Source: Pseudo-nitzschia pungens
Lineage: Eukaryota > Bacillariophyta > Bacillariophyceae > Bacillariales > Bacillariaceae
Assembly: GCA_037355855.1 (NCBI GenBank)
Contig: CM074760.1
Span: forward strand, 6,130,501-6,194,500
DNA length: 64,000 nucleotides
Direction of reading: 5' to 3'
Shown here piece after piece: positions 3,750 through 34,848 of this stretch. A program made the position numbers and the translations under genes. Each line of letters begins with the position of its first letter. Positions within the stretch are counted from its first letter, which is position 1. Under the pieces are notes generated by a model. That model searched no databases and was not told the DNA's origin. It saw nothing but the letters and a program-made list of their open reading frames with translations.

Positions 3750-4969
3750 ATCAGGGTAGTGAGGTGATTTGATGATTCAATGGCAAATGGAATGGTGACG
3801 CAACGAAGAGGAACTACGAAGCAAGTTACAGAGCAGAGAAATTATACGAAAAAACAAGCAGCTAAATGATACGGAGGAACAAGCCGATCAATGGAACGGA
3901 GGAACAAGCCGATCAATGGAAGCATTAAAGGAATTAACGATTACGGAATAATTATTGGAGAAAGGAATGTACACGGAGATTACGGAATAATTATTGGAGA
4001 AAGAAATTAACCGATTGACACAGATCGATCGAGTGCAGAACGAAAATGGAATACGGAAGAATTGACTCTTACAGATACAGAAGAGTTAAAGAGAAACAAT
4101 TAACAGAAGCAGGATACGGAATCGCTGAAGGAATTAAGCAGGATACGGAATCAAGCTTGATGCGGACGAATCAACGGCAGACGATTGAACGATTTAAGGA
4201 GAGCGGATCGATAGATCGATACAGATCGATCGCGTGGAGTTTACAGAGACGGATTGATACAGATCGATCGAGTGGCGTTTATAGAAGCGAAAGAATGAAA
4301 GGAACTGATGGAAACGAATGAATATTGAAAGCAAAGCAACAATAACGGTTGAATGAAGAGTTATCGGATCGATCGAACGGATCGGTCGTAAGATGATAAT
4401 AAAGCGATTTGATTGTGTGGCAATGGATCGATCTAACACGGAACAATCTGATTGTACGGATCAATCGTAACATGGAGCAATCTGATTGTACGGAAGCGCA
4501 ACTGACTGATTGCGACGTGGACGGATCTGATTGTAAGAAAGACAACAATTGAAATGGAGGATTGATTATTGAATCGATTGATAGGAAATGAGTGTTCGAG
4601 TGATGAATGCGATGAAGATCACTTGACTGGCAACAGGAAGGAAAGATTACAAATGAAAAGAGATTTACAAAGAGTTTGAGCATTGAATGAATATGATGAT
4701 GAAGAGTTGAAGAGTTTAAGGATTGAGCGAACGCAATTGTTTGAGACATAACGTACTTGAGACAGAACGTGCGAAGACTTAACAACGGAAGCAATACAAG
4801 AAGTGTGAAGATGTAACGACGCAAATGATACAAATGAATACGGACGGTAACTGAAAAGTAACTGAAACATTATTTAACGACGTAACAATAAACTGAAGAG
4901 GCCCAAAGGATTGGTGGCGAAACGTTAAAGAAGGAAGTGTGATTCAAAAGTCTTTGAAGCAGGGTAGTG
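3745..4969 (+). other. Post-gag region bounded by two PPT-like repeats
   Basis: The polypurine tract before the 3' LTR is GAAGCAGGGTAGTG (4956-4969). A 17-base copy with one mismatch (TTTGAATCAGGGTAGTG, 3745-3761) overlaps the gag stop codon. Between them lie about 1.2 kb of non-coding DNA rich in GATCGATCGA-type and GATTGTACGGA-type short repeats. The same arrangement occurs inverted in the chimera (29827-30927). Confidence 0.6.
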
Positions 4970-5329
4970 TGTTTGGACGTGATATTCGGACATACGATAT
5001 ACACATATGATATGCTTCCTAAGACTATTGAACAAGACTCTTGATTGAATATGGGCCGGGAATAAAGATGACCGGGACTAGAGACATTGCAAAATAGAGA
5101 AAGACCGATGAGTCATCACCAAAGAAAGAGAATTAAGTGAATCAGCAATAAAGAGAATAAAGTGAATAACACGAGAATGCATGTAAGAGAGGAAACAATC
5201 AAATAAACAACAGAATGGACCATTCACTCAGTAATCGAAATACTCAGGATTTAACAATGTAATTAAACAATTAAGAAACTCAAACCTCGTACTGTACAAA
5301 TCTACACGGTTTTACGAGCCCTCCAAACA
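4970..5329 (+). repeat. 3' LTR of element A (360 bp)
   Basis: Same length and, by eye, same sequence as 1437-1796. Followed by TCGTC (5330-5334), the right copy of the target duplication. Confidence 0.93.
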
Positions 5330-5334
5330 TCGTC

Positions 5335-5531
5335 GCCAGGTGGTTGCGGGGATGGTGTACCACCTGAAGATTGCAACAAGGGGGACACGGGAAGGCGCGG
5401 CCGACGACAACGACAACGAAGGGTGTTGTCTGCACGTCAAGGTGTTGGTGCCACTTCCCCACACTGGAGAGGCCCCTCGAATCGTAGCCCACCAACGCGC
5501 AGCGCTGCAAGACCCACTGGAGGTTCTGTGA
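5335..5531 (+). pseudogene. Stefin-type cystatin, 3' part
   Basis: Continuation of the gene starting at 1256. The first codons give QVVAG, the hallmark first hairpin loop of cystatins that enters the protease active site, followed by MVYHLKI as in stefins. After an acidic insertion come LHVKV and LPHTGE, which match the second binding loop of stefins (LPxxN/GE). The reading frame ends at TGA 5529-5531. Together with 1256-1436 it gives 125 codons. The gene is separated from its start by 3.9 kb of retrotransposon. Confidence 0.78.
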
Positions 5532-5618
5532 CACGGGAACTCTCGGTGTTTGCACCGAGCCGTTTGCACGCTGTGTGGTGTCATTGCGTAGGTTTCGGCA
5601 TTCCTGGGATTGGTGCGC
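5532..5618. other. Short spacer between cystatin end and element B
   Basis: No feature beyond the cystatin 3' flank; it ends at the TSD TCATG (5619-5623) of the next element. Confidence 0.5.
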
Positions 5619-5623
5619 TCATG

Positions 5624-6051
5624 TATTAAATTGTAACCGTGACACGATCCACTCCATATGCGCACCATGCGCAAAATAGTTTTCTACAGGGTTTCCAGTA
5701 CTGCTTATAAACAAGCAGCAAACACAACAAGACAGCAACATCGATTCCCCGACAAGATTGCTGTCATCACTTCTTTAGTTTAACTCTGATTTGAATACCT
5801 TGATACCTACATCCTGCTCACTGAGCAACTCCCTGTAGTACTACAAATCTAGGATCTAACTGACTGTGCCAAGTGGTAGTTAGAATAGATCCGGCCAACT
5901 GTCTTCCCCTTTGGTCGTAGTGGTGAATCCGAGACTATCGATAGAACAGACCGGCACCTCAACCGGTTTCCACGCCCTTGCTCCTGTTGTATATCTCCAA
6001 GCCTGCCTTAGGACCTATCAGCCTAAAACCAGTTTCAGCTACATTTTAACA
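5624..6051 (+). repeat. 5' LTR of element B (428 bp)
   Basis: TATTAAATTGTAACC at the start and CATTTTAACA at the end. Matches 9440-9867 over its full length by eye. Confidence 0.9.
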
Positions 6052-9062: not shown

Positions 9063-9439
9063 CATGCTTCCATTTCTGTCTCCTTCTTGTCCTCTGCCTT
9101 ATTCCCTTTCGTCATCTGGGGCGTTCTCTTCAGAGATGCCATTGGCAATATGCAGAGTCCCAACAACATCCGCTCATACAGATCCCACACCAAAACATGG
9201 GGCGCATCTTCCAGCTGATATCGCCCAACAACAGGGCACATCTTCAGGCTCTGTGCCATCACTCATCCACATGGGGCGCATCTCACCTGCGCTATTGCCC
9301 ATCCCTTTACTCAACATGGGGCGCAACCTATGCGCTATTGCCCATACTCGCTTGCATTTATTTCTGTCTGTGTCACAGCTCCAACATGTCCATGACAACG
9401 AAGAAAGATTCTCTTGCTTCCCTGATCATAGATGGGGCG
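9063..9439 (+). repeat. Repeated PPT-like segments before the 3' LTR of element B
   Basis: The 3' LTR is preceded by GATGGGGCG (9431-9439), which would serve as polypurine tract. CATGGGGCGCA occurs three times upstream (about 9195, 9270 and 9316), each followed by sequence around ATTGCCCA or TCGCCCA. This is a degenerate tandem repeat of a region containing the tract. Confidence 0.6.
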
Positions 9440-9867
9440 TATTAAATTGTAACCGTGACACGATCCACTCCATATGCGCACCATGCGCAAAATAGTTTTC
9501 TACAGGGTTTCCAGTACTGCTTATAAACAAGCAGCAAACACAACAAGACAGCAACATCGATTCCCCGACAAGATTGCTGTCATCACTTCTTTAGTTTAAC
9601 TCTGATTTGAATACCTTGATACCTACATCCTGCTCACTGAGCAACTCCCTGTAGTACTACAAATCTAGGATCTAACTGACTGTGCCAAGTGGTAGTTAGA
9701 ATAGATCCGGCCAACTGTCTTCCCCTTTGGTCGTAGTGGTGAATCCGAGACTATCGATAGAACAGACCGGCACCTCAACCGGTTTCCACGCCCTTGCTCC
9801 TGTTGTATATCTCCAAGCCTGCCTTAGGACCTATCAGCCTAAAACCAGTTTCAGCTACATTTTAACA
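9440..9867 (+). repeat. 3' LTR of element B (428 bp)
   Basis: Same sequence as 5624-6051 by eye; followed by TCATG (9868-9872). Confidence 0.9.
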
Positions 9868-11805: not shown

Positions 11806-14800
11806 CTGACAAGAGGATAAAATTTGTTAACATGACGAAGAAAAATCAGTAACAAAATAGAGAAAAAAATATGGATAACAATATTGTACACAACAAAGCC
11901 TTACCGTCCACAAACTTGTAATTTGATTGCATAGATTGGATGCATCGTAACCTGAAAGTACAAAAATGATAAACAAACACCTCCCTATCAGAAATCATAC
12001 CAACACACAAAACAACAGCAAAGACTATTCCATCCAAATGACTTTTCACAGTCTTGGTGACCATTACAACCACTTATACACTCACACAAGTAAAGACTAC
12101 CATTTGTCAATTGACCTATCTCACTAGGTAAACTTCCACTAAATTGGTTTTCATCTGCAAGTACACAAATGATTGATAAACAAACACGTTCCTGTCAGAA
12201 ATCATACCCACAAACTTATCAACAAACAAAATCAAACACAATGCAATACCAATGACTTTTTACAGTTTTGATAACCATTACATCCACTTATACACTCACG
12301 CAAGTTTAAAAAAGTTAATGATGTCAACTTTCCAATCTCACTTGGTAGACTTCCCGTAAATAATTGGTTTCCATCTGCAATTACAAAAAAAATGATAAAG
12401 AAACATCTTCCTGTCAGAAATCACGCCAACAAACGAAACAACAAACAACATCAAACACAATGCCATACCAATGACTTTGCACTGCCTTGATAATCATTAC
12501 AACCACTTATACACTCACGCAAGGTAAGCTCTTTCAAATTTATCAATTGACCAATCTCACTTGGTAGACTTCCACTAAATTGGTTGTCATCTGCAAGTAC
12601 ACAAGTGATAAAGAAACACGTTCCTGTCAGATCATACCCACAAATAGAACAACAAACAACATCAAACACAATGCCATACAAATGACTTTTCACAGTCTTG
12701 GTGACCATTCCAACCACTTATACACTCACGCAAGCCGAGATACATCAAATTTGTCAACTTTCCAATCTCACTTGGTAAACTTCCAGTAAATTGGTTGTTA
12801 TCTGCAAGTAGACAAGTGAAAACAAACAAACACGATCCCATCAGAAATCATACCCACAAACTAAACAACAAACAACATCAAACACAATGCCATATTATTG
12901 ACTTTTCAAAGTCTTGGTGACAACTACAACCACTTATGCACTCACACAATTCAAGACTCGTCAAACTTGTCAACTTTCCAATCTCACTTGGTATACTTCC
13001 AGTAAATATGTTGTCATCTGCAAGTAGACAAGTGAAAAAACAAACACGTTCCTGTCAGAAATCATACCCACAAACAAAACAACAAACAACATCAAACACA
13101 ATGCAATACTAATGACTGTGCACTGTCTTGGTGACCATTCCAACCACTTATACACTCACACAATTCAAGACTTATCAAATTTGTCAACTTTCCAATCTCA
13201 CTTAGTACGCTTCCAGTAAATATGTTGTCATCTTCAAGTAGACAAGTGAAAAAAACAAACACGTTCCTGTCAGAAATCATACCCACAAACTAAACAACAA
13301 ACAACATCAAACACAATGCCACACCAATGACTTTTCACCGTCTTGGTGAGTATTCCAGCCACTAATACACTCACACAAGTGAAGACTTGTCAAACTTGTC
13401 AACTTTCCAATCTCACGTAGTACGCTTCCAGTGAATTGGTTGCGTGCTGCAAGTGCACAAGTGAGAAACAAATACCTTCCTGTCAGAAATCATACCAACA
13501 ACCAAAACAACAAACGACATAAACACAATGCCACACCAATTACTTTGCACTGTCTTGGTGACCATTACAACCACTAAAACACTCACACAATTCAAGATCT
13601 CTCAAATTTGTCAACTTTCCAATCTCACTTGGTAAACTTCCAGTAAATTCATTGTAAACTGCAAGTCCAAGAGTGATAAAGAAGCACCTTCCTGTCAGAA
13701 ATCACACCAAAAAACTAAACAACACACAACATCAAACACAATGCCATATTATAGACTTTGAATAGTCTTGGTGACCATTACGACCATGTATACACTCACA
13801 CAAGTCAAGATCTCTCAAATTTGTCAACTTTCCAATCTCCCTTGGTAAACTTCCAGAAAAGTTGTTCTTATCTGCAAGTACACAAGTGATTAAGAAAGAC
13901 GATACCGTCAGAAAACATACCCACAAACTAAACAACAAACAACATCAAACACAACGCCATACTATTGACTTTGAACAGTCTTAGTGACCATTACAACCAC
14001 TTATACACTCACACAAGTCAAGATCTGTCAAATTTTTCAACTTTCCAATCTCACTTGGTAAGCTTCCAGTAAATTTGTTGTTTGCTGCAAGTACACAAAT
14101 GACAAACAAACACCTTCCTGTCAGAAATCATACCACAAAGAAAACAACAAACAACATCAAACACAATGCCATATTGTTGTCTTGAAGACCATTACGACCA
14201 CTTCTACACTCACCAAAGAAAAGACTTTTCAAATTTGCCAAATTTCCAATCTCCTTTGGTAAACTTCCACTCAATTTGTTGTTAGCTGCAAGTACACAAA
14301 TGATAAATAAACACCCTCCCGTCAGAAATCATACCCACAAACTAATCAACAAACAATATCGAACACAATGCAATACCAATGACTTTTTACAGTTTTGATA
14401 ACCATTACATCCACTTATACACTCACCCAAGTAAAGACTTTTTGTCTCTTTCAACTTTCCAATCTCACTTGGTAAACTTCCAGTAAAGTGGTTGTCATCT
14501 ACAAGTACACAAGTGATAAACAAACACGTTCCTGTCAGAAATCATACCCACAAACTAATCAACAAAGAATATCAAACACAGTGCCATACAAATGACTTTT
14601 CACCGTCTTGGTGAGCATTCCAGCCACTAATACACTCACAAAAGTAAACATTTTTCAAATTTGTCAACTTTCCAATCTCCCTTGGTAAACTTCCAGTAAA
14701 TTCGTTAAAATCTGCAAGTACACAAAAAATGAGAAACAAACATCTTCCTGTCAGAAATCATACCCACAAACTAAACAACAAACATCAAACACAATGCCAT

Positions 14801-17800
14801 ACCAACGACTTTGCACTGTCTTGATGACCATTGCAACCAATTATACACTCACACAAGTCAAGACTTGTCAATTTTTTCAACTTTCCAATCTCACTTGGTA
14901 AACTTCCAGTAAATTGGTTTTCATCTGCAAGTACACAAAATGATAAACAAACACCCTCATGTCAGATATCATACCCACAAAAAAAAAAATCAAACACAAT
15001 GCCATACAAATGACTTTTCACAGTCTTGGTGACCATTCCAACCAGCGATACACTCACGCAAGTTAAGAGAAGATAACGATGTCAACTTTCCAATCTCATT
15101 TGGTAAACTTCCAGTAAATTTGTTGTATGCTGCAGGTTCATTAGTGATAAGCAAACACCTTCCTGTCAGAAAAATCATACATCAAACACAATGGCATACG
15201 ATTAACTTTTCACAGTCTTGGTGACCATTCCAACCAGTTCTACACTCACGCAAGCCAAGATAAACCAAGCTTGTCATTTGACGGATCTCACTTGGGACAC
15301 TTCCAGTCAGACGATTTGAATCTGGAAATAGAATTTACAAAAAGATTGCATTTAGTCTTGTTTGATCAAACACATCATTCCAAAGCCTGAAACTCTTTGA
15401 AAAACAAATTTTTGATGAAATATGAACCAAATGAAGTAGATCCACTCACTCAGAGACACATATTGCAAATTAGATAATTTCCAAGTATTTTCCGGAATGG
15501 TTCCGCTCAATTTATTTAAACCTTGAGAATGAGACAAGAGAGCAATCGATTTTGAGGAAATTGAAAATATTAAGCAAAATCAATTTGTTCTGATTGTACA
15601 CCTTTTCTTTGACTCACCCATATCTATTTTCAAAAATGACTTCAACAAACCAATGCTGCTCGAAATTGTTCCTTTTAAGTTCAGGGTAGCTAGGTCCAAC
15701 TCCCGAAGTTTTCCATCATGGCATGATGTTGTAAACCAAAGACAGGTTGGATTTGTATTGATCCACAACTTGTCTTCACCTGATGCAATAGGAGCACCAA
15801 AATTCAATGCACTCAAGCCAAATCTGTCCATAAAAGCTTCATCTTGACAATTGGAATTCCCAGTGCCATCATTCACGATCCAATTCCAAGCTTTGTTTGT
15901 ATGAACATCATTATACATTGTAAACACATCTGTATACTCTGAAACCTTTTGTAGCATGCAAGCAGGAATGGTGAAAAAGGGCACAATCCCAACTTGTTCA
16001 CTATCAACTTCAAAAATCTTTTGGTCATTGTCTGCTTTGTCACTATTGAAAACTGAATAGTGAACGTACCAAATGGTACTCTCTTTTTCAGTCTCATTTG
16101 TGACTCTCACTTTGCAATCGGCTCGATCATTAACCTTTACTGTCTGGGTTTTGTTGATCATTTTTTCGTTGATTCTAAGCAACAAAACAACTTTACCATC
16201 ACATTCAATCAGGAGCTGAGGATTCTCCACAGGAGTCCCCTCCGACCAATGTAGCACATTTCTTTCAGACTCTGTAAATTTTTCAAGACGAATGGTGATT
16301 GGAACCATGCTTGGATCTTCACAGTATGGAAAGCCATCACCAGTTATATCTGACATGCCAAAAGCTTCCTTGATAGTGTCAATCCCACAGTTGGGATGAG
16401 AGCATGTTGCAGAGCAGCAATCCCCACGATCAAATTCATATTCTACAGAATTGAAATTTTCATTGCACTCTCCATCATTGAGCAAGGAACAATATTGCAA
16501 TTCAGACTGATTCAACTCAATAATATACACATCAACAGGAGTGCCAGAAGCACTATACCACCCCTCATCAAATGCAGTCAAAATGTCAAAAGAATCAGTC
16601 TGAGTAGAATGTGCAAACCAACTCTCCTTGACGTCACATGCATTGGTGCCATGCTTGGAAAGTATCCACTGACGATCATCAATGCAGTATTGCAAACTCA
16701 TCTTGTCAAGCGGATCAAACTTTGTATAGATATCCCTCTTGTATGAGTTAATTCCAAGTGATGCATTGTGATTAAATTCATAGCACCCACTAAAAGTTTG
16801 TAGGTTCTTGTCCTGAAATTCCACCCTCAAGATGCTAGTGCGCCACCAACTTCTGTGTTCTTGAACAAGACCAATTGCACCCATGAATGAAAGAAGGAAA
16901 AAACCCAAAGCCCCCAGAGTGCAACAAAACCCAAAATGTTTGCTTTCTCGATTCATGCATGGGGGAACATTGAGGTGAGTGATTCTCTTTGCTCCTTCTT
17001 CTAGCTTGGGTCCATACTTCCCCCAAAGAGCTAGCGTAAACGCTATGTTGTCAAGCTGACCAATGAAATTCTGTAGGGGTAGTCGTACGCATGCAAATGG
17101 TGAGAAGATCATTCACATAAATAGGTTCAAGACAATCCTTTTGATACTCACAACTGCTGTGAAATTTAGGACAATTTCAACCGAGCTCTCAGCAGTGACA
17201 ATGAGTAGAAATGTTGCAACTATTGCTGTAATACCCTGAAGGAAGCGAAGTGTGCAGGAGAAGACAATGCATCCTATTTTATCGCCATTCGTAACTTTGG
17301 AAAGTATCGGAAAAGTTTCCACTGCAACTGCAATATCCATCACAGATCCTTCTGCAAAAAAAACATAGGACAGGAGTGCAAAATTCTGTGTTGCACGGAC
17401 AATAGGACTAGTATTTGCAGCAATTATTTCTGCCAAAAAACTGGTTCCTGGATTATCAACATTCCCCTTCACACCCCACTTTGGGTGGAGAACACTAAGT
17501 ACCATTGTGACCAGGAGTGACATTTGGAAGAGGAAGACCACAATTCCCATGACAAAGAAGGTAATGTCATCAAGTGGCCCGTAAAGAGACAAGAATGAAT
17601 AGCAATCAGATGGATACTTCTCTGATCTTCGAAGTCCTGAATGACCTGTAATTTCTGCATAACCTCTGGGGTCATTGGGAGGGCTTGATATGTTGTTGTC
17701 TCCCTCTCCTCCTTCATCCCTGTTCCATTCTTCTGAAAGAGTATTGGTTTTGGTTGTATTAGAATGACCCGAACGACCGTTAAGGTTATTGCGAGGACTG

Positions 17801-20342: not shown

Positions 20343-20862
20343 TTCAATGCGTTGATATAATACAGGAGGGGGACAGCAAGCAGAAGCAACGCGTCGATAC
20401 ACAGCAAGCAGCAACTCGTCGATATAATGCAGAGGGGACAGCAAGCAGCGAGCAGCAGCAACGCGTCGATAATACAGGGGGGGACAGCAAGCAGCGAGTA
20501 GCAAGGGGGGGACAGCAAGCAGAAGCAACGCGTCGATAATACAGGGGACAGCAAGCAGCGAGCAACGCGTTGATAATACAGGGGGGGCAGCAAGCAGCAA
20601 GCAGCAAGCAGCAACGCGTCGATAATACATGGGGGGAACAGCAAGCAGAAGCAACGCGTCGATAATACAGGGGGGGGACAGCAAGCAACGCGTCGATATA
20701 CAGGGACAGCAACGCGTCGATATACATTGGACAGCAGCAAAGCGTCAATAATACAAGGGAGCAGCAAGCAGCAGCAACGCGTTGATATACAGGGAGCAAG
20801 CAGCAAACAGCAGCAAAGCGTCGAAAAAACAGGGGGGGACAGCAATTAGCAAACAGCAGCGA
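20343..20862 (+). repeat. Minisatellite array 2
   Basis: Same unit as 1-898 (AACGCGTCGATAATACAGGG plus GACAGCAAGCAGCAGC), same orientation. It ends in the TTTTGCTAGGTTC segment (20877-20890), as in array 1. Confidence 0.9.
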
Positions 20863-21795: not shown

Positions 21796-22153
21796 TGTTT
21801 GGAGGGCTCGTATAGTCGGTAGATTTTGTACAAGTTTGGGGATTTTGTTGTTTTAATGTTTTGCTTACTTTAATTGTGAGCAGAAATGAATCCACTCTAA
21901 TTTTCACTAAATTTCTCTTTTACATGCATTCTCGTGTTATTTCTTGTTTTCTTTGTTCCGGTCCATTCATTCCCAGCCCCCATACATTTGTGTACTGGAT
22001 CCAGTGGAAACTTACTTAATGCTCTGTAGGCTTGGTACTTAAGGTCCTATCTTTTAGTAACTGGAAATGTTCGGACCGGTAGGAGGTAATTCTTCTTTGA
22101 TTTGAATCGGGCAAGTCACTGTTTCAAGCACGACTGGAGGTCACGTCCAAACA
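21796..22153 (-). repeat. 3' LTR of element C (358 bp)
   Basis: Plus-strand ends TGTTTGGAGGG...ACGTCCAAACA. Same as 27909-28266 by eye. The adjacent PPT is at 22154-22167 (minus strand, AAGCAGGGGAGTG). Confidence 0.92.
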
Positions 22154-22179
22154 CACTCCCCTGCTTGGAACTTACTCAT

Positions 22180-25100
22180 TCAATCAACCATACTGCTCCA
22201 GAAAGCAGTGTACTCAGCACAGGCTTCCTTGGCCTGGACGGATACCCCACTGATATCTCTGGTTGGCTCTTTTGGTTCATTTGCTCTCTCATGATATTCA
22301 TCCTTGCCATAAAACTTGGAACCATGTTTCTCAAATTGCACTCCTGGCAGGTTCTTGGTGAAGATGTCACTGGTCATGTCATCACCTTCTTTCCACTTGA
22401 CTCTCACCAAACCCATTTCCTTCAGCTCTCTCAGAAAATACTGTTTGACTTCAATGTGTCTTGTTCTTCCAGCAACAGACCAATTGTTACAAAAATCAAC
22501 TGCTCCTTTGTTGTCAACATACAACACCATCGGGAGCTTGATTGCAAGCCCCAGACACATCATCACACGCCACGCATACAACATATCCTGAACACACTGA
22601 ATTGCTGAATACAGCTCTGCTTCCATAACAGACAGGGCTATGATTGGCATCATCCTGGATCTTGCAGACAGATTTGCACCATTCAGCCAGGTGCTCCAGC
22701 CATTCACACTGTGCCTTGATTCGTCTTTGGCATACTCTGAATCGCTCATTCCGATCAGTTCAAACACAAAATCCTTGGTACCGTCCCACTTACCAAATGG
22801 GGCCAATGTCAAACCTCTCTTGGCTGTACCAACACAATATTTCATTACTCTCTTCAATGCCTTCATGTGAGACTTCCTTGCGGTCGTCATGAATCTAGAT
22901 AACTCCCTGACAGCATTCTGGGTCTCAATTCTGGTCCATCTCATCATATGCAGGAGAATGGCTGTACCAGACCTGTAGGTAGTCTGCTCTTCCTTTGACA
23001 GTACAGCGTCTGTCGGGCCTTCTCCCTCTTGCTTCAATACAGAACCAGGTTCAGCTGGAGTGACAGGATTGCCTCTGCACTCATCCAGCTGAAACTCATC
23101 AGAAAATCTCTTGATCTTCACGGGTTGTGTCAAACGCATAGTCCTTTTCTTCCGATCGCGCTCAACATGGCAACCCACATACTCATCCATTTCTCCAACG
23201 TCCTTACACTCAAAGAGTTTCTTCAGTTGCTCTTTGTGCCTCAGTACCTCTTCATCAGGACCCATGATGCAAAAATCATCTACCCACACCAACATCAAAA
23301 GGAGCTTGCCTTCAATCCACTTGAAAAACAAGCATGGGTCTGCTTTGCACCTCTCCATTCTCATTGCTGACATTGCTTGCCGTGCTTCTCTCCAGAATTG
23401 CATGGCGGCTTGCACTGTGCCATACAAAGTCTTCATCAGCTTGAGAACAACATAGGATGGGTAATACTTCTGATATCCTTCTGGAACCTTGGTGAAAATC
23501 TGCTCTCCATTCTGGAATCTTCCATTTAGGAAAGCGCCTTCAACATCCACAATATATGCCATCCAGTTGGCCATTACCATTAGAATCATACACAGTCTGA
23601 TCGTGATATCACTTACGACGGGCGCTGACTTGTCCTGGGAGTCAAAATGTTTGCCATCAACTTGCTTGAATCCTCTCACAGCGTTCCGGCATCTCACAGT
23701 ACCATCTGGCTTCATCTTGTTGGCCCATGTAGTGTCCATCAGCTTGGTTCCGGGTGGAACATCTCTTTCATCCACTTCCTGAAACACTCCATACTTCACC
23801 ATCTTGTCATGCTCTGCATCAATACCCTTCTCGAACGCTTCTCGCATGGGGCTTGTCATGGACTCCTGGTAGTTCATAGTTCTCAGCTCATCAGTATTTT
23901 TAAATGCAGTTCCAGTTGCACCGACAAGCGCGAGCTCATTCATACCTGCATCCTTGCTTGGTAGGGACACGTTAAGCAGATTTAGTTCATTCAAACTGGT
24001 CATATCCTTATGGAACTTGGCTTCCGCTGGGGTCCATGCACATGCATATCCGGCATATTCATACATGGCATTGGACTTGGAATGTCTTGGATCTCTCACA
24101 ACTCTGCCAAATCTGGATGTTCGGAGGATTGAAACTGGGGTGTCTCCCGCCTCCTCTGCATCCTCTTCAGCATCATCTTCATCATCATCATCATCATCAT
24201 CATTATCTTCCTCATCATCATCCGAATCTTCAATTGCATCTTGGTTGGCATCTTCATACATCTCGATGTCCAAATCATCTTCACTGTCACTGTCACTGTC
24301 ACTTTGCCCTCCACTCATGGCGGCCTCCAGGGCTTCAAACGCTTCAAATTCAGGATGCAATGTGGATTGCTTTTGCACACGCTCACTCCCCCCACTTGCA
24401 GCGTGAAATTGGACTTGTCTGGAGCCATAACGGTTAAAACCTTCATGTTCGGGCTGCTGACGTTGAATGGCACCGTACTTGCCGTCCAGGGATTCAAAAT
24501 AGTCAAAAGGGAGCTCAGCTGGGGCGTTTGCAAAATATTGTCGATTCAACCACAGAACATCTCGGGTTTCTGTCATGGTATTCGACTCGGGGTGATACAT
24601 TAGGTAGCAATCACCCGGCTTGTTAGGACAATACCCAGCAAACATGTAGGTCTTGCCCCTGTAGTTGGTTTTAGGGCTTGTCTTTCTTTTACGTCTGACA
24701 ACACCGGCCTCACCAAACACTCGTAGGTGGTGTGTGTAAGGTGGTAACTTGCCCGAAAAATGCTCATGCTTGGTGGCCCATACTCCATTTACCTTGGTGA
24801 CCACCAATCGGTCCACTTGCACAGCACAATGCACGGCCAGGGGAAACATCCTGTATCTGTACTTACGGGGAACCTGGGCATGGCTGCATAATGCCATAGC
24901 CCGACACACTGTGGTGTAAATCGCCGTCTCAGCTACACTGTTCTGCTGAGGGGTATCCACAGATGTGTACTCAAAATCAGCAGGAATTTTCCAAGCTGCT
25001 GACTTCATTCTGTCTTCAAGAGCTTCATTCTCGCCTGCAGGATCACATCTTATGCGCTGAACTTGCAGGCCCTTCACATTCCAGTGATGAATTAATTCAC

Positions 25101-27591
25101 ATGTGGGCTCAACCATATCATCTTTGTGCTTGAAGAATTGCACAAATCTGCATCCGGAGTACTCATCCACAATCATCCGGAAATTTGGCTTGGCAATAAA
25201 TGGGGATCCATCCTGGGGCTTCTTCACTGACGCCATATCCAGAAACAGCCGCCCTCCTGGTTGCCCTGCAACTTGGTGGGTGTTGGTGATGGGAAACACC
25301 TTTCGCTTTGCCTTGGCCTTGGCACAATCCTCACCAGGTTGTAGAGGTCCTTCCTTTATGATCCACTTCAGTGCTTTGGCTGTTGCTCTGACCTTCCTCT
25401 CGTTGGCATGCCCCAGGAGTTTGTGGGCTTGGTTGATGCTCATCTTCACCCCTGGTCCTGTGGCGTCTCCAACTGCAGCTGCATTCACTTCCAGTCCTTG
25501 GGTGTCTTCAAGTCGTCTGAAATAGCCTACCCACACACAGCTTGTTAACGTAGGCACTCTGATGTCAAACCTCAACTCCATATTCCCTTTCTTCAGGGTC
25601 CAGCCTTTGCACTTGCTGCCTTCTGCGCTCCATCCACTTTCCATGGCAACATTGGCTGAGAACAGATTAAATGCAAACTTTGGATTAAAACTCACATTGC
25701 TCAACATCATCCGGTTTTGAAACTTGCCTTTGTTATCCAATTTCTCACAGAATAAATCACCAACTGTGCAGGATTGCATGTCTCCACTCTGGGTTGTAAT
25801 GGTGCTTGAGTTGTTATGGAGGTTGATGGCGCCTCTCAAACTGTTGGAACTGTGGCTGGTCGCTCCACTGTCAAACACAAACACATTGTCATCATAAAGT
25901 AGATCAAATCCCTTGGGCGAATCCTCACCTGACTGCTGAGTATTCCATAGTTGCAATGCTATTTGGGTTTGCAAGGAGGGCAACATGATGGATGCCAAAA
26001 TGAAATCACACTGAACACTGTTGTAATTCATGCTCATGGCAGCTCCCTGCATGTCTCGTTTCATGGATGATTTCCAGTTGCGTGGGCGCTTGTCCTTGTT
26101 TCGATCATCCTCCCAACACTTTTCAGTTGGATGTTGCTTCCCACAGATGCTGCAAATCGTCCCGCCGTTCCTTCTTCTGTTCCCTCCATTGTTTCCTCCG
26201 TTGTTGCCTCCATTGTTGCCTCCATTGTTATTGTTGCTGTTGTCACCTGGTTGGATTCTGGGTAATCCGGCCTGTCGTCTTGGACACTGAAAGGCCTTGT
26301 GGTTCTCGCCTTGGCAATAATAACAGATGATCTTGCTCGTCCACTGGTCTCTGGGATCCCGGAATGCGTCAGCTCCAATCAGGCTCATATCTCTGGCATT
26401 GCTGCTCGCTCCTCTTCCCTTCAATACCACCACGGAACTGTACAAGTTGGTCGCTGTCCTCTCAAGGCGTTCCCAAATTTCGAAGTCATTCACTCCAGGC
26501 TTGTCCTTCAATTCATTCAGTTGGTTGGTGATCGTAATCACCAGGTATGGTGGGATCGCATGCAACAATGTGGCAAATAACTCTTCATTCGTAGGTTGAA
26601 TTGTCTTGTGCTGATACTTCTGTATTAGCCCATATATCTGCTCAAAAATCTCTTTGGGATGGTCCAAAGCCCCCATCTTGATTGCCCTTCGGTCCTTGTC
26701 CAGCTGAATCCTATCTGACGTGTCGGTCCTTCTGTATAGTTTGAACAGCTCGTCAAAAATCCTATGCACTCTGCCTCGGGGCCAATTCTTCTTGTTTATT
26801 GTGTTCTGCTCTTCGGTCACTCCAATGTCAAGCTTGGATTTCTCAATGATGGCGAGTCCCGTCTTGTTGTTTTGGAATGCCGTACACAAATCGTTTATGG
26901 CTTTGATATGTTTTCTCATTGCCTTTCTCTGCTCTGGGGTCATGGATTCGTGGGATACTGAGTAGCCTTCGTTTGGTAGGTCTGGATGCTGTTTTGACGT
27001 TACAAATCCCTCATACTTGCTTCTGCTCGCATGAGCCAGAAACTGTTGGAACCATCCTTCAAAATCAACGTCTCCTGCGTTGGACAGCTTCGGAACCTTG
27101 GTATATGGCATGTTGGAATCACTGGAGTCACTGTCACTCGAATTGCTCTCGTCTGAATCGTAATCGCTCTCGGAGGAATCGTCACTGCTGCTTTCGTCGT
27201 CGTCGTCGTCGTCGTCGTCGCTGCTGTTCGATAGGTCGTCTGCTCCTGCTCCACTCCGCTGATCCACCGCCGAAGCTCCAATCCGATCTGTCGCTTCTCC
27301 AATCCGCTGATCCACTGCCGCAAGCTCCGCCGCCAGACCTTCCTCGTTCGGATCTTCAACACTCAGCTCCTCTTCTTCTAAATCTCTCTGGGTCCTCTCT
27401 CTGCTTCTTTCTTCTCTTCTTCTTTGTGCATCCGCGAGTTGTCGTCTGCCACGTTCTCTTAATTCTGCTCGTCGTTGTATATCTTCCATCAATCGTCGTC
27501 GTATTTTCTTTCTTTCTTCAGCAATCGTACTCGTCTCAGCAAGTCGATAATGATCGTACTCGGCGCGTTCCGCTCTCCAGAGTCGATCCAC
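22180..27591 (-). CDS. gag-pol: Gag-Pol polyprotein of element C
   Basis: 1803 residues in one frame. A charged, Arg/Glu-rich N-terminus and an acidic Asp/Ser stretch (~1-160) precede Gag (from MPYTKVPKLSNAGDVDFEGW, ~160). Zinc knuckles: CYYCQGENHKAFQC (~424) and CSICGKQHPTEKC (~480). Aspartic protease: DSGATSH (~572). Integrase: HKLLGH (~722), then catalytic D in FLDMA (~784), D in RCDPAGEN (~848), E in SVAET (~888). A Glu/Asp-rich linker follows (~1130-1170). Reverse transcriptase includes DVEGAFLNG and VWVDDF (~1437). RNase H includes MEAELYS (~1657) and YVDNKGA (~1688), then the DIFTK motif near the C-terminus. Only one cysteine of the usual CxxC pair is seen in the integrase zinc region. 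First ATG chosen; an internal start at the Gag motif is possible. Confidence 0.95.
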   Translation of the reverse strand: MDRLWRAERAEYDHYRLAETSTIAEERKKIRRRLMEDIQRRAELRERGRRQLADAQRRREERSRERTQRDLEEEELSVEDPNEEGLAAELAAVDQRIGEATDRIGASAVDQRSGAGADDLSNSSDDDDDDDDESSSDDSSESDYDSDESNSSDSDSSDSNMPYTKVPKLSNAGDVDFEGWFQQFLAHASRSKYEGFVTSKQHPDLPNEGYSVSHESMTPEQRKAMRKHIKAINDLCTAFQNNKTGLAIIEKSKLDIGVTEEQNTINKKNWPRGRVHRIFDELFKLYRRTDTSDRIQLDKDRRAIKMGALDHPKEIFEQIYGLIQKYQHKTIQPTNEELFATLLHAIPPYLVITITNQLNELKDKPGVNDFEIWERLERTATNLYSSVVVLKGRGASSNARDMSLIGADAFRDPRDQWTSKIICYYCQGENHKAFQCPRRQAGLPRIQPGDNSNNNNGGNNGGNNGGNNGGNRRRNGGTICSICGKQHPTEKCWEDDRNKDKRPRNWKSSMKRDMQGAAMSMNYNSVQCDFILASIMLPSLQTQIALQLWNTQQSGEDSPKGFDLLYDDNVFVFDSGATSHSSNSLRGAINLHNNSSTITTQSGDMQSCTVGDLFCEKLDNKGKFQNRMMLSNVSFNPKFAFNLFSANVAMESGWSAEGSKCKGWTLKKGNMELRFDIRVPTLTSCVWVGYFRRLEDTQGLEVNAAAVGDATGPGVKMSINQAHKLLGHANERKVRATAKALKWIIKEGPLQPGEDCAKAKAKRKVFPITNTHQVAGQPGGRLFLDMASVKKPQDGSPFIAKPNFRMIVDEYSGCRFVQFFKHKDDMVEPTCELIHHWNVKGLQVQRIRCDPAGENEALEDRMKSAAWKIPADFEYTSVDTPQQNSVAETAIYTTVCRAMALCSHAQVPRKYRYRMFPLAVHCAVQVDRLVVTKVNGVWATKHEHFSGKLPPYTHHLRVFGEAGVVRRKRKTSPKTNYRGKTYMFAGYCPNKPGDCYLMYHPESNTMTETRDVLWLNRQYFANAPAELPFDYFESLDGKYGAIQRQQPEHEGFNRYGSRQVQFHAASGGSERVQKQSTLHPEFEAFEALEAAMSGGQSDSDSDSEDDLDIEMYEDANQDAIEDSDDDEEDNDDDDDDDEDDAEEDAEEAGDTPVSILRTSRFGRVVRDPRHSKSNAMYEYAGYACAWTPAEAKFHKDMTSLNELNLLNVSLPSKDAGMNELALVGATGTAFKNTDELRTMNYQESMTSPMREAFEKGIDAEHDKMVKYGVFQEVDERDVPPGTKLMDTTWANKMKPDGTVRCRNAVRGFKQVDGKHFDSQDKSAPVVSDITIRLCMILMVMANWMAYIVDVEGAFLNGRFQNGEQIFTKVPEGYQKYYPSYVVLKLMKTLYGTVQAAMQFWREARQAMSAMRMERCKADPCLFFKWIEGKLLLMLVWVDDFCIMGPDEEVLRHKEQLKKLFECKDVGEMDEYVGCHVERDRKKRTMRLTQPVKIKRFSDEFQLDECRGNPVTPAEPGSVLKQEGEGPTDAVLSKEEQTTYRSGTAILLHMMRWTRIETQNAVRELSRFMTTARKSHMKALKRVMKYCVGTAKRGLTLAPFGKWDGTKDFVFELIGMSDSEYAKDESRHSVNGWSTWLNGANLSARSRMMPIIALSVMEAELYSAIQCVQDMLYAWRVMMCLGLAIKLPMVLYVDNKGAVDFCNNWSVAGRTRHIEVKQYFLRELKEMGLVRVKWKEGDDMTSDIFTKNLPGVQFEKHGSKFYGKDEYHERANEPKEPTRDISGVSVQAKEACAEYTAFWSSMVD

Positions 27592-27908
27592 AGCTGATCA
27601 GTGCTGTCTGCAGGACTGGCTTTATACCTCTTGGTCTGCTCCCTTAGTCCACCGCAATCTTATCCGCTTTCGCTGGACAGATCCAAACCGTATCCGTGCC
27701 CAAGTTCTATGCTCCGGACCGATCTGCTGACAATTATATCGTATCCACCGTTGTCGACGTACGGTGAATAGATCTGCAATCGTACCTCCTCGTATCGATC
27801 CGACGACGTTGTAATCGTATACGGATGAAGGTAGATATGTAAGCCTTATCCTTATTCCCTGTATTAGATCTATTCGTCTTTACGAGCGCTTCGTAATTCT
27901 TCGAAGAA
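27592..27908 (-). other. Leader and primer site of element C
   Basis: Primer-site candidate AATTCTTCGAAGAA (27895-27908) adjoins the LTR. The leader carries the same GATCTATTCG / ATACGATTG-type repeats as element A. Confidence 0.6.
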
Positions 27909-28266
27909 TGTTTGGAGGGCTCGTATAGTCGGTAGATTTTGTACAAGTTTGGGGATTTTGTTGTTTTAATGTTTTGCTTACTTTAATTGTGAGCAGAAAT
28001 GAATCCACTCTAATTTTCACTAAATTTCTCTTTTACATGCATTCTCGTGTTATTTCTTGTTTTCTTTGTTCCGGTCCATTCATTCCCAGCCCCCATACAT
28101 TTGTGTACTGGATCCAGTGGAAACTTACTTAATGCTCTGTAGGCTTGGTACTTAAGGTCCTATCTTTTAGTAACTGGAAATGTTCGGACCGGTAGGAGGT
28201 AATTCTTCTTTGATTTGAATCGGGCAAGTCACTGTTTCAAGCACGACTGGAGGTCACGTCCAAACA
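27909..28266 (-). repeat. 5' LTR of element C (358 bp)
   Basis: Pairs with 21796-22153; followed by GTATT (28267-28271). Confidence 0.92.
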
Positions 28267-28706
28267 GTATTATCGACGCGTTGCTTGCTGCTCCCCTGTA
28301 TTATCGACGCATTGCTGCTGCTTGCTGTCCCCCCCCCTGTATTGTCGACACGTTGCTTCTGCTCGCTGTCCCCCCCCCTGTATTGTCGACACGTTGCTTC
28401 TGCTCGCTGTCCCCCCCCCTGTATTATCGACGCGTTGCTCGCTGCTCCCCTGTATTATCGACGCGTTGCTGCTGCTTGCTGTCCCCCCCTAATATGTCGA
28501 CGCGTTGCTGCTTGCTGTCCCCCCCTGTATTATCGTCGCATTGCTTCTGCTCGCTGTCCCCCCCTGTATTATCGAGGCGTTGCTTCTGCTCACTGCTTGC
28601 TACTCGCTGCTTGCTGTCCCCCCCTGTATTATCGACGCGTTGCTGCTTGCTGTCCCCCCCTGTATATCAACGCGTTGCTGCTTGTTGCTGCTCCCCAGTA
28701 TCTCCC
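28267..28706 (-). repeat. Minisatellite array 3 (inverted)
   Basis: Same unit as arrays 1 and 2 in the opposite orientation (CCCCTGTATTATCGACGCGT, then TGCTGCTTGCTGTCC). The copia element sits at its left edge. Confidence 0.9.
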
Positions 28707-29397: not shown

Positions 29398-29402
29398 CTG
29401 CT

Positions 29403-29826
29403 TGTTTGGAGGGCTCTGAAAGATCCTGTAGATTTGTACGAGGTTTGAGTTTCTTTAATCGTTTTGGTTATTACATTGTTAATCCTGAGTATTCCGATTA
29501 CTGAGATGATCATTCAGACCATCGATTCTCCATTCTCATCTCTTGTTTCCTGTTCTTATTCTTATCCACACAATTAACCTTCTGTACACGAGTCTACTAG
29601 AGCCCGTGTATTTATACTTAATGCACTGTAGACTCGGTACTTAGAGTCCTATTTTTAGTAACCTTGGTAATGTCCCTTCAAGTAAGTGGTAATCCCTCAT
29701 GTCTCTAGTCCCGGTCATTCATATTCTCATTCCCGGTCCATATTCAATGGTCTTATGTCCATATTCAATGGTCTTACGAAGCATATCATAAGTGCACATA
29801 TCACATCTGGATGTCACGTCCAAACA
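29403..29826 (-). repeat. 3' LTR of element D (424 bp)
   Basis: TGTTTGGAGGGCTCTGAAAG...ACGTCCAAACA; same as 34420-34843 by eye. Shares termini with, but differs from, the 360- and 358-bp LTRs. Confidence 0.92.
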
Positions 29827-30921
29827 CACTACCCTGCTTCAAAGACTTTTGAATCACACTTCCTTCTTCAACGTTTCGCCACCAATCCTTTGGGCCTCTT
29901 CAGTTTATTGTTACGTCGTTAAATCTTCACACTTCTTGTATTGCTTCCGTTGTTAAGTCTTCGTACATTCTGTCTCAAATAATGGCGTTCGCTCAATCCT
30001 TAAACTCTTCAACTCTTCATCATCATGTTCATTCAATGCTCAAACTCTTTGTAAATCTCTTTTCATTTGTAATTTCCTTTGTAATATTTTCTTCCTATGG
30101 TCAGTCGAGTGTATAATCTTCATCGCATTCATCACTCGAACACTCATTTCCTATCCATCGATTCAATAATCAATCATCCATTTCAATTGTTGTCTTTCTT
30201 ACAATCTAATCCGTCCATGTTGCAATCGATCGGTTGCTCTTACGTATAATCAAATTGCTCCATGTTACGATTGATCCATTGCCACACATTTGAATCGCTT
30301 CATCATCATCTTACGACCGATCCATGCAATCAATTCCAATTGTTCTTCCATGGTCTTTAATTCGCAATCCGTTCGATCGATCCGATAGCATACCTTTCAT
30401 TCTTTCGCTTCTATAAACTCCACGCACATGCGATTGTATCAATCCGTCTGATCGGTCTCCGTCTCTGCAAACTCATGCGATCGATCTGTATCAATCCGCT
30501 CCTTTGTTCAACCTTTATCACTGCTCCTCAAATCGTCTGCTCGTTGATTCATCCATATCACAAGTCGTATCCTGCTTCTGTTAATTGTTCTGCATCAGAT
30601 TGAATTCTTCTTCCTGATCTCGATTGTTGTGTTTAATCCATTTCTTCCATATAGCTCGTTTCGGGCTTGTTTCGCTTTAACCCTTCTGTATCTGTAAGAG
30701 TCAATTCTTCCGTAATTACTCCCTTTCTTCCATATAATTATTCCGTAATAATCGCCATGTAGCATCATTCGATCGGTTAATTCCTTTCTCCAATCGTTAT
30801 TGCTTCTGCGCTCTGCTCTGTAACTTGCTGTAACTTGCCGCTCTTTAATTTCCTTAGTTTCTCTTTGTTGCATCACCATTCCATTCGCCATTGAATCATC
30901 AAATCACCTCACTACCCTGAT
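29827..30921 (-). other. Post-gag region and PPT of element D
   Basis: Diverged inverted counterpart of 3750-4969. PPT at 29827-29840 and a second PPT-like copy overlapping the gag stop at about 30910-30926. Confidence 0.6.
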
Positions 30922-32031
30922 TCAAAGGTATTGGAATGCGAGTGCGACTCCGGTGAGCTCTGTATCAAGCTCTTCTTGCTCCACAAATTTAGCATTAAGT
31001 TTAGATGTCCAGTTTGCTGGACGTTGATCCTTATTTCTTTCAATTTCCCAACATTGGATTGTGGCATGGATGCCATCGCATACAGCACATAATGGTTTGA
31101 TCTTTGGATTGTCATTTGCCCGGAGGGGACAGTTCTTTGCAATATGCCCCTTCTCCTGGCACCAATTGCAGATTGTATATTTCAACCAGGCCATTGCTGA
31201 GTGCGCTTTCCCATTGCCGCTGTTGCTGCTGCTGCCGTTGCTGCGGCTGCCGTTGCCATCATCCCCATCTTTAAATTCGCCGTTGCTATTGTTAATATCC
31301 GCGCCAAGGAGGCTCATATCATTAGGTCTGGGCTGACGTCCCTTCAAAACAATCACTGAATTGTACAAGTTTGTGGCCGTCATCTCCAGCTTCTCCCAGA
31401 TGTCATATATTGGTGTATCCGCGTCTCGTAAATCATTTAACCTGGTTGTCAATGAGATCACCAGGTACTGCGGAACTCCACTGAGTAGTGTTGCAAATAA
31501 CTCATCTTCTGATGGTTTGATTGTCTTGTACTGGTATTTCTGCATCAGTCCAAACAATCGTTCAAAAATTTCCTTCGGGGGATCCAATGCCCCCATCTTA
31601 ACTGCCTTTAGATCCTTATCCAGTTGAATCCTATCCGCTGTATCAGTTTGCCTGTACAACTTGAACAGCTCGTCAAAAATTCGATGGACTCGGCCTCTTG
31701 GCCACTTCCGGACTGTTTCCGCATTTTCTTCTGTCGTCGCTCCTCTATCCATCTTGGATTTCTCAATAATGGCATACCCCGTATTGTTATTGTGGAATGC
31801 CGAATACAGATCGTCCAAAGCTTTGGTGTGCTTCCGCAATGCCTTCCGCTGTTCTTTCCGCATGGACGCATAAACTGTTGCTTCACCGTCACTTGGTAGA
31901 TCTGGGTGTGGCTGTGTGCTCACTAACTCTGGGTACTTGCTCATGCTTGCGTGAGCTAGGAATTGGCGGAACCATCCTTCAAAATCCACGTCTCCTGTGT
32001 TCGTCAGCAAGGGAATTTTGAGGTACCCCAT
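30922..32031 (-). CDS. gag: Gag protein of element D
   Basis: About 369 residues. ATG at 32031 corresponds to the Gag start of element A. Same layout: helical body, Gly/Asn/Ser linker, two zinc knuckles (CNWCQEKGHIAKNC and CAVCDGIHATIQC). The first ~52 codons are almost identical to element A; the remainder differs at many positions, which marks a recombination point near 31875. It lies downstream of an internal LTR and leader, so the internal LTR could drive it (inference). Confidence 0.87.
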   Translation of the reverse strand: MGYLKIPLLTNTGDVDFEGWFRQFLAHASMSKYPELVSTQPHPDLPSDGEATVYASMRKEQRKALRKHTKALDDLYSAFHNNNTGYAIIEKSKMDRGATTEENAETVRKWPRGRVHRIFDELFKLYRQTDTADRIQLDKDLKAVKMGALDPPKEIFERLFGLMQKYQYKTIKPSEDELFATLLSGVPQYLVISLTTRLNDLRDADTPIYDIWEKLEMTATNLYNSVIVLKGRQPRPNDMSLLGADINNSNGEFKDGDDGNGSRSNGSSSNSGNGKAHSAMAWLKYTICNWCQEKGHIAKNCPLRANDNPKIKPLCAVCDGIHATIQCWEIERNKDQRPANWTSKLNAKFVEQEELDTELTGVALAFQYL

Positions 32032-32883
32032 ACTGGTTGTCACTTTGCTCCGTTAAATATATCCTTGTCCTTCTTCCGTCGATCGTCCGACAATAAAGCG
32101 CGACGCCGACTCGTTTGCTTCTTCTTTCAATCGTATCCGTATCCGCGGATAGATCCTTTCTGTTGTTCGATCGTATTCGTTTCTGCGAATAGATCCCCGT
32201 GTTTGTTCTGTTTTCTTCTGCGATTGTTCGTCGAATCAAATCGCCTGCAAGACCAAATTCTTTCGTTGGTCCAATATCTTTCTTTCGTTGTTTGTCGTAT
32301 TTTCTTATTCTTCTTCTTCCAATCGTGCTCGTCTCAGCGAGTCGATCCTGATCGTATTCGGCGCGTTTGCTCTCCAGAATAGATCCGTGGCTGATCAATG
32401 CCACCTGCAAGACTGGCTTTGTACCTCTTGGTCTGCTCCCTTAGTCCACTGCAATCTTATCCACTTGGATAGACCCAAATCGTATCCGTGCCACGTTCTA
32501 TGCTCCGGATAGATCTGCTGACAATCAAATCGTATTCGTCTTCAGCGAATAGATCCTTGTTATCGTTGTTGTTGTTCTTCAATCGTATTCGGCTCTTTCT
32601 TCTCCGAATAGATCCTTGTTATCGTTGTTGTTGTTCTTCAATCGTATTCGGCTCTTTCTTCTCCGAATAGGTCCTTGTGATTCGTTTATCACCTGCAAGA
32701 CTGAGGTCCTTTCCCGTCAGTCCAATTCGTAATCGTAATTCAATATTCTTCTCTTCTGCAATCGTATCCGCGCTTCGTTGTTTCGTTGTTTCGCAGATAG
32801 ATCATTCGACGTTCTTGCTCTCGCCTCGTGTACTGATCTCTCGTCTTTACAAAGCGCTCCTCGAGATAAAATTCTTCGAAGAA
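32032..32883 (-). repeat. Second (internal) leader of element D
   Basis: Near-identical inverted copy of 1797-2648, including the hairpin repeats and primer site (32870-32883). Confidence 0.85.
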
Positions 32884-33243
32884 TGTTTGGAGGGCTCGTA
32901 AAACCGTGTAGATTTGTACAGTACGAGGTTTGAGTTTCTTAATTGTTTAATTACATTGTTAAATCCTGAGTATTTCGATTACTGAGTGAATGGTCCATTC
33001 TGTTGTTTATTTGATTGTTTCCTCTCTTACATGCATTCTCGTGTTATTCACTTTATTCTCTTTATTGCTGATTCACTTAATTCTCTTTCTTTGGTGATGA
33101 CTCATCGGTCTTTCTCTATTTTGCAATGTCTCTAGTCCCGGTCATCTTTATTCCCGGCCCATATTCAATCAAGAGTCTTGTTCAATAGTCTTAGGAAGCA
33201 TATCATATGTGTATATCGTATGTCCGAATATCACGTCCAAACA
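32884..33243 (-). repeat. Internal 360-bp LTR within element D
   Basis: Matches the LTRs of element A in length and, as far as read, in sequence. Its outer side is followed by GACGA, the reverse complement of element A's TSD TCGTC, and then by cystatin sequence. It therefore derives from an element already inserted in the cystatin gene. Confidence 0.92.
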
Positions 33244-33517
33244 GACGAAACTCCAGCACTCGGTAGGAGGAAAACAAATCGGCATCATTGTCATTGCAAT
33301 TGTCATCATAACCCTCGTCACTACCGAGTCGTCCTCGGAGTTGCGGTCGTATCCGAGCCGCCAGTTGTTTCACTTCGAGCGGAATGACTTGTTGCGATTC
33401 GGAATGCCCCCCGAGTATTGTCATGATTTGGTGTTCTTCGATCCCAATGAAAAATACGGAACGTCGTCAAGAATATGGTATTGCAAATAATGATGATCGA
33501 TTGATTCTCCATCAATC
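33244..33517 (-). pseudogene. Captured 5' fragment of the cystatin gene
   Basis: 274 bp matching 1163-1436 with only a few differences noticed (for example Arg to Gln after GGHSESQ). It includes about 93 bp upstream of the ATG (33424) and the first 60 codons, which stay open. QVVAG and everything 3' of the insertion point are absent, so no inhibitor can be made from it. Confidence 0.88.
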
Positions 33518-33654
33518 AGATCGGGGTGTGGATCCGAACTCACTAACTCTGGGTATTTGCACCTGCTTGCATGAGCTAGGAATTGTCGGTACCATCCTTC
33601 AAAATCCACGTCTCCTGTGTTCGTCAGCTTGGGAATTATGCTGTACCTCCCCAT
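33518..33654 (-). pseudogene. Truncated gag start of element D
   Basis: ATG at 33654 (MGRYSIIPKLTNTGDVDFEG), about 45 codons of a Gag variant distinct from the copy at 30922-32031, ending after a PHPDL motif at the junction with the cystatin fragment. Confidence 0.85.
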
Positions 33655-34419
33655 GCTACTCGTCACTTCACTCTATCAAATATATCCTTGTCCTTCCTCC
33701 GTCGATCGTCCGACAATAAACCGCGACGCCGACTCGTTTGCTTCTGCTTTCAATCATATCCGCCGTATCCGCGGATAGATCCTTTCCGTTGTTCGATCGT
33801 ATTCGTCTCCACGAATAGATCCCCGTGTTTGTTCTGTTTTCTTTTGCGATTGTTCGTTGAATCAAATCGCCTGCAAGACCAAATTCTTGTTGGTCCAAAT
33901 GTCTTTCTTTCGTTGTTTTTTTTTGTTGTATTTTCTTATTCTTCCTTTCTGCAATCGTACTTGACTCAGCAAGTCGACCCTGATCGTATTCGGTGCTTTG
34001 TTTTGCTCTCCGGAATAGATCTGTGGCTGATCAGTGCCACCTGCAAGACTGGCTTTGTACCTCTTGGTCTGCTCCCTTAGTCCACTCTGCAATCTTATCC
34101 ACTTGGATAGACCCAAATCGTATCCGTGCCACGTTCTATGCTCCGGATAGATCTGCTGACAATCAAATCGTATTCGTCTTCAGCGAATAGATCCTTGTTA
34201 TCGTTGTTGTTCTTCAATCGTATTCGGCTCTTTCTTCTCCGAATACCCGCAAGACTGGGGTCCTTTCCCCTCAGTCCAATTCGTAATCGTAATTCAATCT
34301 TCTCTTCTGCAATCGTATCCGCGCTTGCGGATAGATCAATCAACACGTTTGCTCTCGCCTCGTGTACTGGTCTCTCGTCTCCCGAGCGCTCCCCTAACGA
34401 GATAAAATTCTTCGAAGAA
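33655..34419 (-). other. First leader and primer site of element D
   Basis: Variant of the same leader family with small deletions relative to the internal one; primer-site palindrome at 34406-34419. Confidence 0.7.
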
Positions 34420-34843
34420 TGTTTGGAGGGCTCTGAAAGATCCTGTAGATTTGTACGAGGTTTGAGTTTCTTTAATCGTTTTGGTTATTACATTGTTAAT
34501 CCTGAGTATTCCGATTACTGAGATGATCATTCAGACCATCGATTCTCCATTCTCATCTCTTGTTTCCTGTTCTTATTCTTATCCACACAATTAACCTTCT
34601 GTACACGAGTCTACTAGAGCCCGTGTATTTATACTTAATGCACTGTAGACTCGGTACTTAGAGTCCTATTTTTAGTAACCTTGGTAATGTCCCTTCAAGT
34701 AAGTGGTAATCCCTCATGTCTCTAGTCCCGGTCATTCATATTCTCATTCCCGGTCCATATTCAATGGTCTTATGTCCATATTCAATGGTCTTACGAAGCA
34801 TATCATAAGTGCACATATCACATCTGGATGTCACGTCCAAACA
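34420..34843 (-). repeat. 5' LTR of element D (424 bp)
   Basis: Pairs with 29403-29826; followed by CTGCT (34844-34848). Confidence 0.92.
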
Positions 34844-34848
34844 CTGCT

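Follow-up and report, generated by a model that had tools for sequence, protein, structure and literature searches.

Sequence copied from a neighbouring element and its host cystatin gene into an LTR retroelement of Pseudo-nitzschia pungens, possibly by DNA break repair

Introduction

The capture of gene fragments by LTR elements is usually credited to template switching by reverse transcriptase. The stretch of Pseudo-nitzschia pungens DNA analysed here, 64,000 bp in length (C3:6130501-6194500; hereafter the window), contains an LTR element, termed D, that carries the 5' part of a host cystatin gene, and the interrupted donor gene lies in the same window. This locus raises the question of how the gene sequence entered the element, through reverse transcription or through DNA repair. 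A single assembly holds donor, product, an uninterrupted D-type relative and an uninterrupted paralogue of the gene, which allows both junctions to be resolved to the base. D offers a clean, single case of a route by which host DNA could enter such elements.

Materials and Methods

The genome assembly comprises 66.9 Mb in 28 contigs, and all genome-wide searches were run over these contigs. Positions given without a contig name refer to the window. The census of the element family drew on 63 and 47 matches, obtained from 40 of 76 and 40 of 79 candidates scored. The 24 and 35 longest matches were used, and the resulting counts are lower bounds; because only the longest entered, short internal LTR pieces would be missed. 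Twenty-one LTR pairs were recovered, one of which spans two elements sharing an LTR on contig C7, hence 20 elements.

Results

The 5' part of a predicted stefin-type cystatin gene occupies 1256-1436 on the forward strand, as judged from its open reading frame and from comparison with an uninterrupted paralogue. A first-pass annotation had described the captured sequence as the 5' flank and first 60 codons of this gene; the ATG at 1256 confirmed this, except that 60 codons plus one base precede the interruption. The gene is interrupted by element A (1437-5329, forward strand), a gag-only LTR element that has identical 360-bp LTRs and the target site duplication (TSD) TCGTC (1432-1436 and 5330-5334), and is located in the gene's own orientation. 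The second TSD copy and the 3' part of the gene follow at 5330-5531 (forward strand), beginning just before the QVVAG motif and ending with the stop codon at 5529-5531. The gag of A, which starts at 2649, is 366 amino acids long and gave a zinc-knuckle match of 21.3 bits (cut-off 27). A sibling of A on contig C1 (L031) is 99.6% identical over its length.

The uninterrupted paralogue (L036, C3:6110912-6111181) lies about 20 kb upstream in the host genome and is 89% identical to the captured 274 bp (query positions 1-263) and 97% identical to the 3' part of the donor over 5331-5570. Paralogue and donor match to either side of the captured part, supporting the earlier view that the fragment is host-derived. 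An uninterrupted cystatin allele had also been proposed as worth seeking, and an uninterrupted gene was found in the form of this paralogue: a genome-wide pattern search for the gene site gave a zero-mismatch match only at C3:6111171. When two mismatches were allowed, one further place, C3:7465166, was detected. The motif of the paralogue reads RRQVVAG, and its PF00031 score was 18.9 bits (cut-off 22.2). A database search found two homologues of the paralogue, one in Pseudo-nitzschia australis (57%) and one in P. multistriata (47%), both with PF00031, and there were zero matches among solved structures. For one protein of the window, the best named relatives among 120 of 253 matches belong to pennate diatoms. 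A 56-bp block (1109-1164) is identical in donor and paralogue and is kept much better than the sequence downstream of it; judging from this conservation, it could be a core promoter, with a possible transcription start near 1163. Just downstream of the cystatin gene, identical 429-bp direct repeats (5623-6051 and 9439-9867) enclose a 708-amino-acid open reading frame without a Pfam match and probably represent another young LTR-type element.

Element D is located on the reverse strand at 29403-34843, with identical 424-bp LTRs and the TSD CTGCT (29398-29402 and 34844-34848). Near it, also on the reverse strand, is element B (21796-28266), a Ty1/copia-type element with identical 358-bp LTRs, the TSD GTATT and a 1,803-amino-acid open reading frame in which the copia-type reverse transcriptase domain RVT_2 scored 111 bits. 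Paired LTRs, TG...CA ends and a 5-bp TSD, as expected of Ty1/copia elements, were found in A, B and D alike. A copia-type reverse transcriptase or pol is absent from A and D. Both are likely to be non-autonomous, since gag is the only sense-strand open reading frame of at least 150 amino acids in either; element B is a possible helper of the two. Related short-period repeat arrays occur near the elements (9-893, 20345-20858 and 28267-28696), one of them inverted, and self-comparison of the window revealed, at 11952-15307, a long stretch of tandem repeats whose period is about 215 bp.

Comparison of D with the donor locus showed that 31874-33517 on the reverse strand is a copy of 1163-2806 on the forward strand, with 1,641 of 1,644 bases identical. 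The match is continuous over the 1,644 bp, and past the end of the tract differences are dense at once. An alignment of 1163-2806 with 31875-33517 had been suggested from the letters alone; the continuous match with three mismatches bore this out, and the end in D proved to be 31874, one base further. The donor tract consists of host 5' flank and 60 codons (1163-1436), of which 93 bp precede the ATG, followed by the 5' LTR of A (1437-1796), the A leader and the start of the A gag. In D, the host part occupies 33244-33517 (reverse strand) and is identical to 1163-1436 at 272 of 274 bases, in agreement with the approximately 99% first estimated by eye, and a complete copy of the A 5' LTR occupies 32884-33243 (reverse strand), identical to both LTRs of A at 360 of 360 bases. 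The captured piece had been thought to end at the TSD. This was not the case: the copy runs on through the 5' LTR and leader of A and the start of its gag to a point between 2789 and 2806. A distance of 29-32 kb separates donor and product, which lie inverted to each other on a single contig.

As the TSD-LTR junction of the donor lies inside the copy, the claim that the donor already contained element A holds. A sat in the cystatin gene first, and the copy was made into D afterwards. Two of the three mismatches are in the host part, at donor positions 1232 and 1290. Both lie at CpG, and at both the paralogue has the donor base, indicating that D changed there. The third, at 2746, is a G in A alone among 13 aligned sequences, indicating that the donor changed after copying. 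All three mismatches have G in the donor and A in D, and a deaminase-type signature was considered but dropped, because two are derived in D at CpG and the one at 2746 is derived in the donor. Dating by divergence was likewise abandoned: three differences in 1,644 bp compared with none in the 784 bp of LTR pairs (probability of zero differences, 0.24) did not separate the models. The identical LTR pairs of A and D fit recent insertion and do not date the copy relative to the insertions. A plain inverted segmental duplication was rejected, because outside the tract D follows its D-type relatives and not the donor locus. An assembly artefact that joined donor and D sequence is very improbable, given that three sites distinguish copy from donor, with two changes on the D side and one on the donor side, and that the element enclosing both junctions has a TSD and an identical LTR pair.

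We searched the genome for the captured sequence. The three candidates obtained for the 274-bp host part were D, the donor and the paralogue, and the captured segment was absent from all six relatives compared (L030-L035). The fragment being a multicopy repeat or family-internal sequence, which the annotation had named as the finding that would overturn its reading, was rejected on these grounds. The recommended search for further LTR-cystatin junctions (a 21-mer with up to two mismatches) found two places, the donor and D, with none for a reversed-pattern control. The sequence across the outer, non-homologous junction of D occurs once in the assembly and the 274 bp have no fourth place, so that no spread of the captured segment by further transposition was found. 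Among the 20 LTR-paired family members in the matches used, only D carries another element's LTR inside. At C7:3635135-3643458, three D-type LTR copies at an equal spacing of 3,954 bp mark a tandem of two elements with one LTR in common, an arrangement expected from unequal recombination.

Both ends of the tract were then located by comparison with D-type relatives without the insert (L030, on contig C4, together with L032 and L033). At the outer end, D tracks L030 through ...CCCCGATCT (equivalent to A position 2782) and then switches to host base 1163. Comparison of L030, the donor and A places this non-homologous junction at 33517-33518 (reverse strand), with 0 bp of exact overlap and zero added bases. 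Joining by exact microhomology was rejected for this junction, as no base is shared at the join. At the inner end, sites diagnostic against L030 define a homologous junction at 31873-31891 (reverse strand), where D is A-type at 31891 (A 2789) and D-type from 31873 (A 2807). D carries A-type bases at 2777 and 2789 and D-type bases from 2807, so the switch occurred inside the 17-bp identical block 2790-2806. The gag sequence adjoining this junction is identical between A and D at 539 of 564 positions.

Relative to the uninterrupted L030, the gag of D itself breaks off at A-equivalent 2782 and is taken up again between 2790 and 2807. D has therefore lost only 7-24 bp, and no more than 24 bp lie between its two breakpoints in D coordinates; should the mismatch at 2789 have been converted to the donor base, D would have lost no base at all. 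One homologous and one non-homologous junction with a small loss from the acceptor form the pattern of repair in which homologous invasion is terminated by end joining, as in non-canonical termination and, reportedly, in coupled homologous/non-homologous repair. The same geometry would be expected from replication-based template switching of DNA (MMBIR/FoSTeS type) at D, or from other DNA recombination that does not start from a break, all of which would give the same product, and the short donor distance would also suit it. However, the entry junction lies in long homology, which is more typical of homologous invasion, and the exit junction lacks microhomology; we regard this origin as improbable.

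The outer end of the tract coincides with a further feature. It sits 2 bp inside a potential hairpin at 1161-1183 (forward strand) with a 9-bp stem, TCGATTGAT-GGAGA-ATCAATCGA, which is one of four stems of at least 9 bp with loops of 3-9 in the 64-kb window. Proximity of 3 bp or less to the outer base of such a stem applies to 0.09% of the positions in the window, and the coincidence was noticed after the fact.

The insertion also altered the reading frames of D. Its own gag start (33518-33654, reverse strand) is cut after 45 codons, and the frame continues to give a 77-amino-acid open reading frame. The TGA of this frame overlaps the captured cystatin ATG (ATGA, 33421-33424), probably by chance. 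The captured cystatin frame comprises 73 amino acids without QVVAG; lacking this loop, the piece is predicted to make no inhibitor. Further on, an A-type start and a D-type remainder are joined in frame into a chimeric gag of 369 amino acids (30922-32031, reverse strand), which we predict to be expressed from the copied A LTR.

Discussion

An ordinary LTR-element transcript starts inside the LTR and lacks the 5' U3 and the host flank. The tract was therefore copied either from genomic DNA or from readthrough RNA that began at the cystatin promoter. We lean towards the former, that is, towards DNA break repair that copied the tract into D from A about 30 kb away. Under this proposal, a double-strand break would have arisen in the gag of D, and the downstream end of D would have invaded the matching gag of A. 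Synthesis would then have run outward through the 5' LTR of A into the cystatin gene, where fold-back of the new strand at the hairpin at 1161-1183, both arms of which had been copied, may have ended it. The new end would finally have been joined without homology to the upstream end of D. The DNA template, the break as the starting event and the strand exit at a hairpin-capable site are what we infer; repair of a broken D from A would account for the nearly coincident breakpoints, the mixture of homologous and non-homologous junctions and the short distance. A random insertion would fall within 33 kb of the donor in a genome of 66.9 Mb in only about 0.1% of cases, although this argument is weakened because a nearby donor was needed for the case to be seen in one window.

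Alternatively, a readthrough RNA that started at the cystatin promoter and ran through A may have been packaged together with D RNA. Minus-strand synthesis would have passed from D to A RNA within gag, continued on the latter as far as its 5' terminus near 1163 and returned to D RNA, and the chimeric cDNA would have integrated with its own TSD. This template switching by reverse transcriptase is a serious but less likely alternative. Several observations favour it and count against break repair: A lies in sense orientation within the gene, which an RNA route would require; the tract begins 93 bp ahead of the ATG, where the 56-bp conserved block ends and transcription may start; and D is mosaic, its closest relative changing along its length. 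From the mosaic, recombination by reverse transcriptase is likely to be common in the A/D family. D also has the TSD, the highly similar (here identical) outer LTRs and the internal third LTR by which Sabot and Schulman recognize complex elements formed by template switching (PMC1950507), which likewise weighs against break repair; two complete core sequences, another of their criteria, are absent from D, where gag is present as a truncated start and a single complete copy. On the other hand, template switching does not predict a location about 30 kb from the donor, it needs a second, non-homologous jump that returned within 24 bp of the departure point, and zero sibling chimeras were found genome-wide. 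Repair of a broken D by DNA synthesis fits these observations at least as well as an origin during retrotransposition.

The locus had been interpreted as gene-fragment capture by an LTR element. A host-derived segment with an identified donor does lie between the LTRs of D, but the unit that moved was a copy of about 1,644 bp and not the 274 bp. The host fragment is the outermost portion of a longer stretch, copied from the A 5' end, that entered through A/D gag homology, and so looks like a by-product of recombination between two elements rather than a separate gene capture. In our estimate there is an even chance that dispersed LTR-element copies serve as homology handles, with break repair copying adjacent unique host gene sequence between copies and no RNA intermediate; retroelements would then have a way of capturing genes that works on DNA and from the 5' side. 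If a DNA route is true, any element family with dispersed copies could shuttle neighbouring gene pieces, promoters included. The DNA and reverse-transcriptase routes make distinct, testable predictions at the A/D locus.

Several known systems can be compared with D. Capture (transduction) of host genes by LTR retrotransposons through template switching is described in PMC1950507 and in a 2026 review (PMC13317346), according to which there is no report of 5'-transduction from plants. D resembles such captures in having a host segment within an element bounded by LTRs and a TSD, a chimera of two related elements and an extra internal LTR. It differs in that its segment comes from the 5' side of the site where a sibling inserted, with the sibling's 5' LTR included, in that its non-homologous junction lies in gag and not in the R region, and in that the donor is only about 30 kb away.

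Breaks within transposable elements are documented sites of chromosomal DNA capture in vertebrates (PMC2671141). Like D, these captures are single-donor copies in a transposable element, with a donor on the same chromosome and few acceptor bases lost. In the human cases, 824 of 1,136 came from within 5 kb, and the distance of about 30 kb in D would count against break repair by this analogy; compared with that proximal class (under 5 kb, up to 619 bp), both the length of 1,644 bp and the distance are greater in D. D also differs from these captures in its entry through element homology and its exit without microhomology or filler. Homologous invasion ended by end joining is known from mammalian cells (PMC5104497), a system that, unlike D, involves induced breaks in reporters. 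All nine cloned non-homologous terminations given there have microhomology or added nucleotides; the outer junction of D has neither, and by this comparison also speaks against break repair.

In diatoms, recombination between Ty1/copia elements (CoDi) has been reported for Phaeodactylum tricornutum (PMC2806351). A and D share with the CoDi elements the Ty1/copia type, the TG/CA ends and the nearly identical LTRs. Unlike the two-element exchange reported there, host flank was copied into D, and A and D have only gag. Among the open-licence papers searched on capture, LTR elements, diatoms and repair, none was found that describes copying of a 5' flank by this route. Gene capture by elements is known; what is unusual here is the 5' flank copied out through a sibling's LTR.
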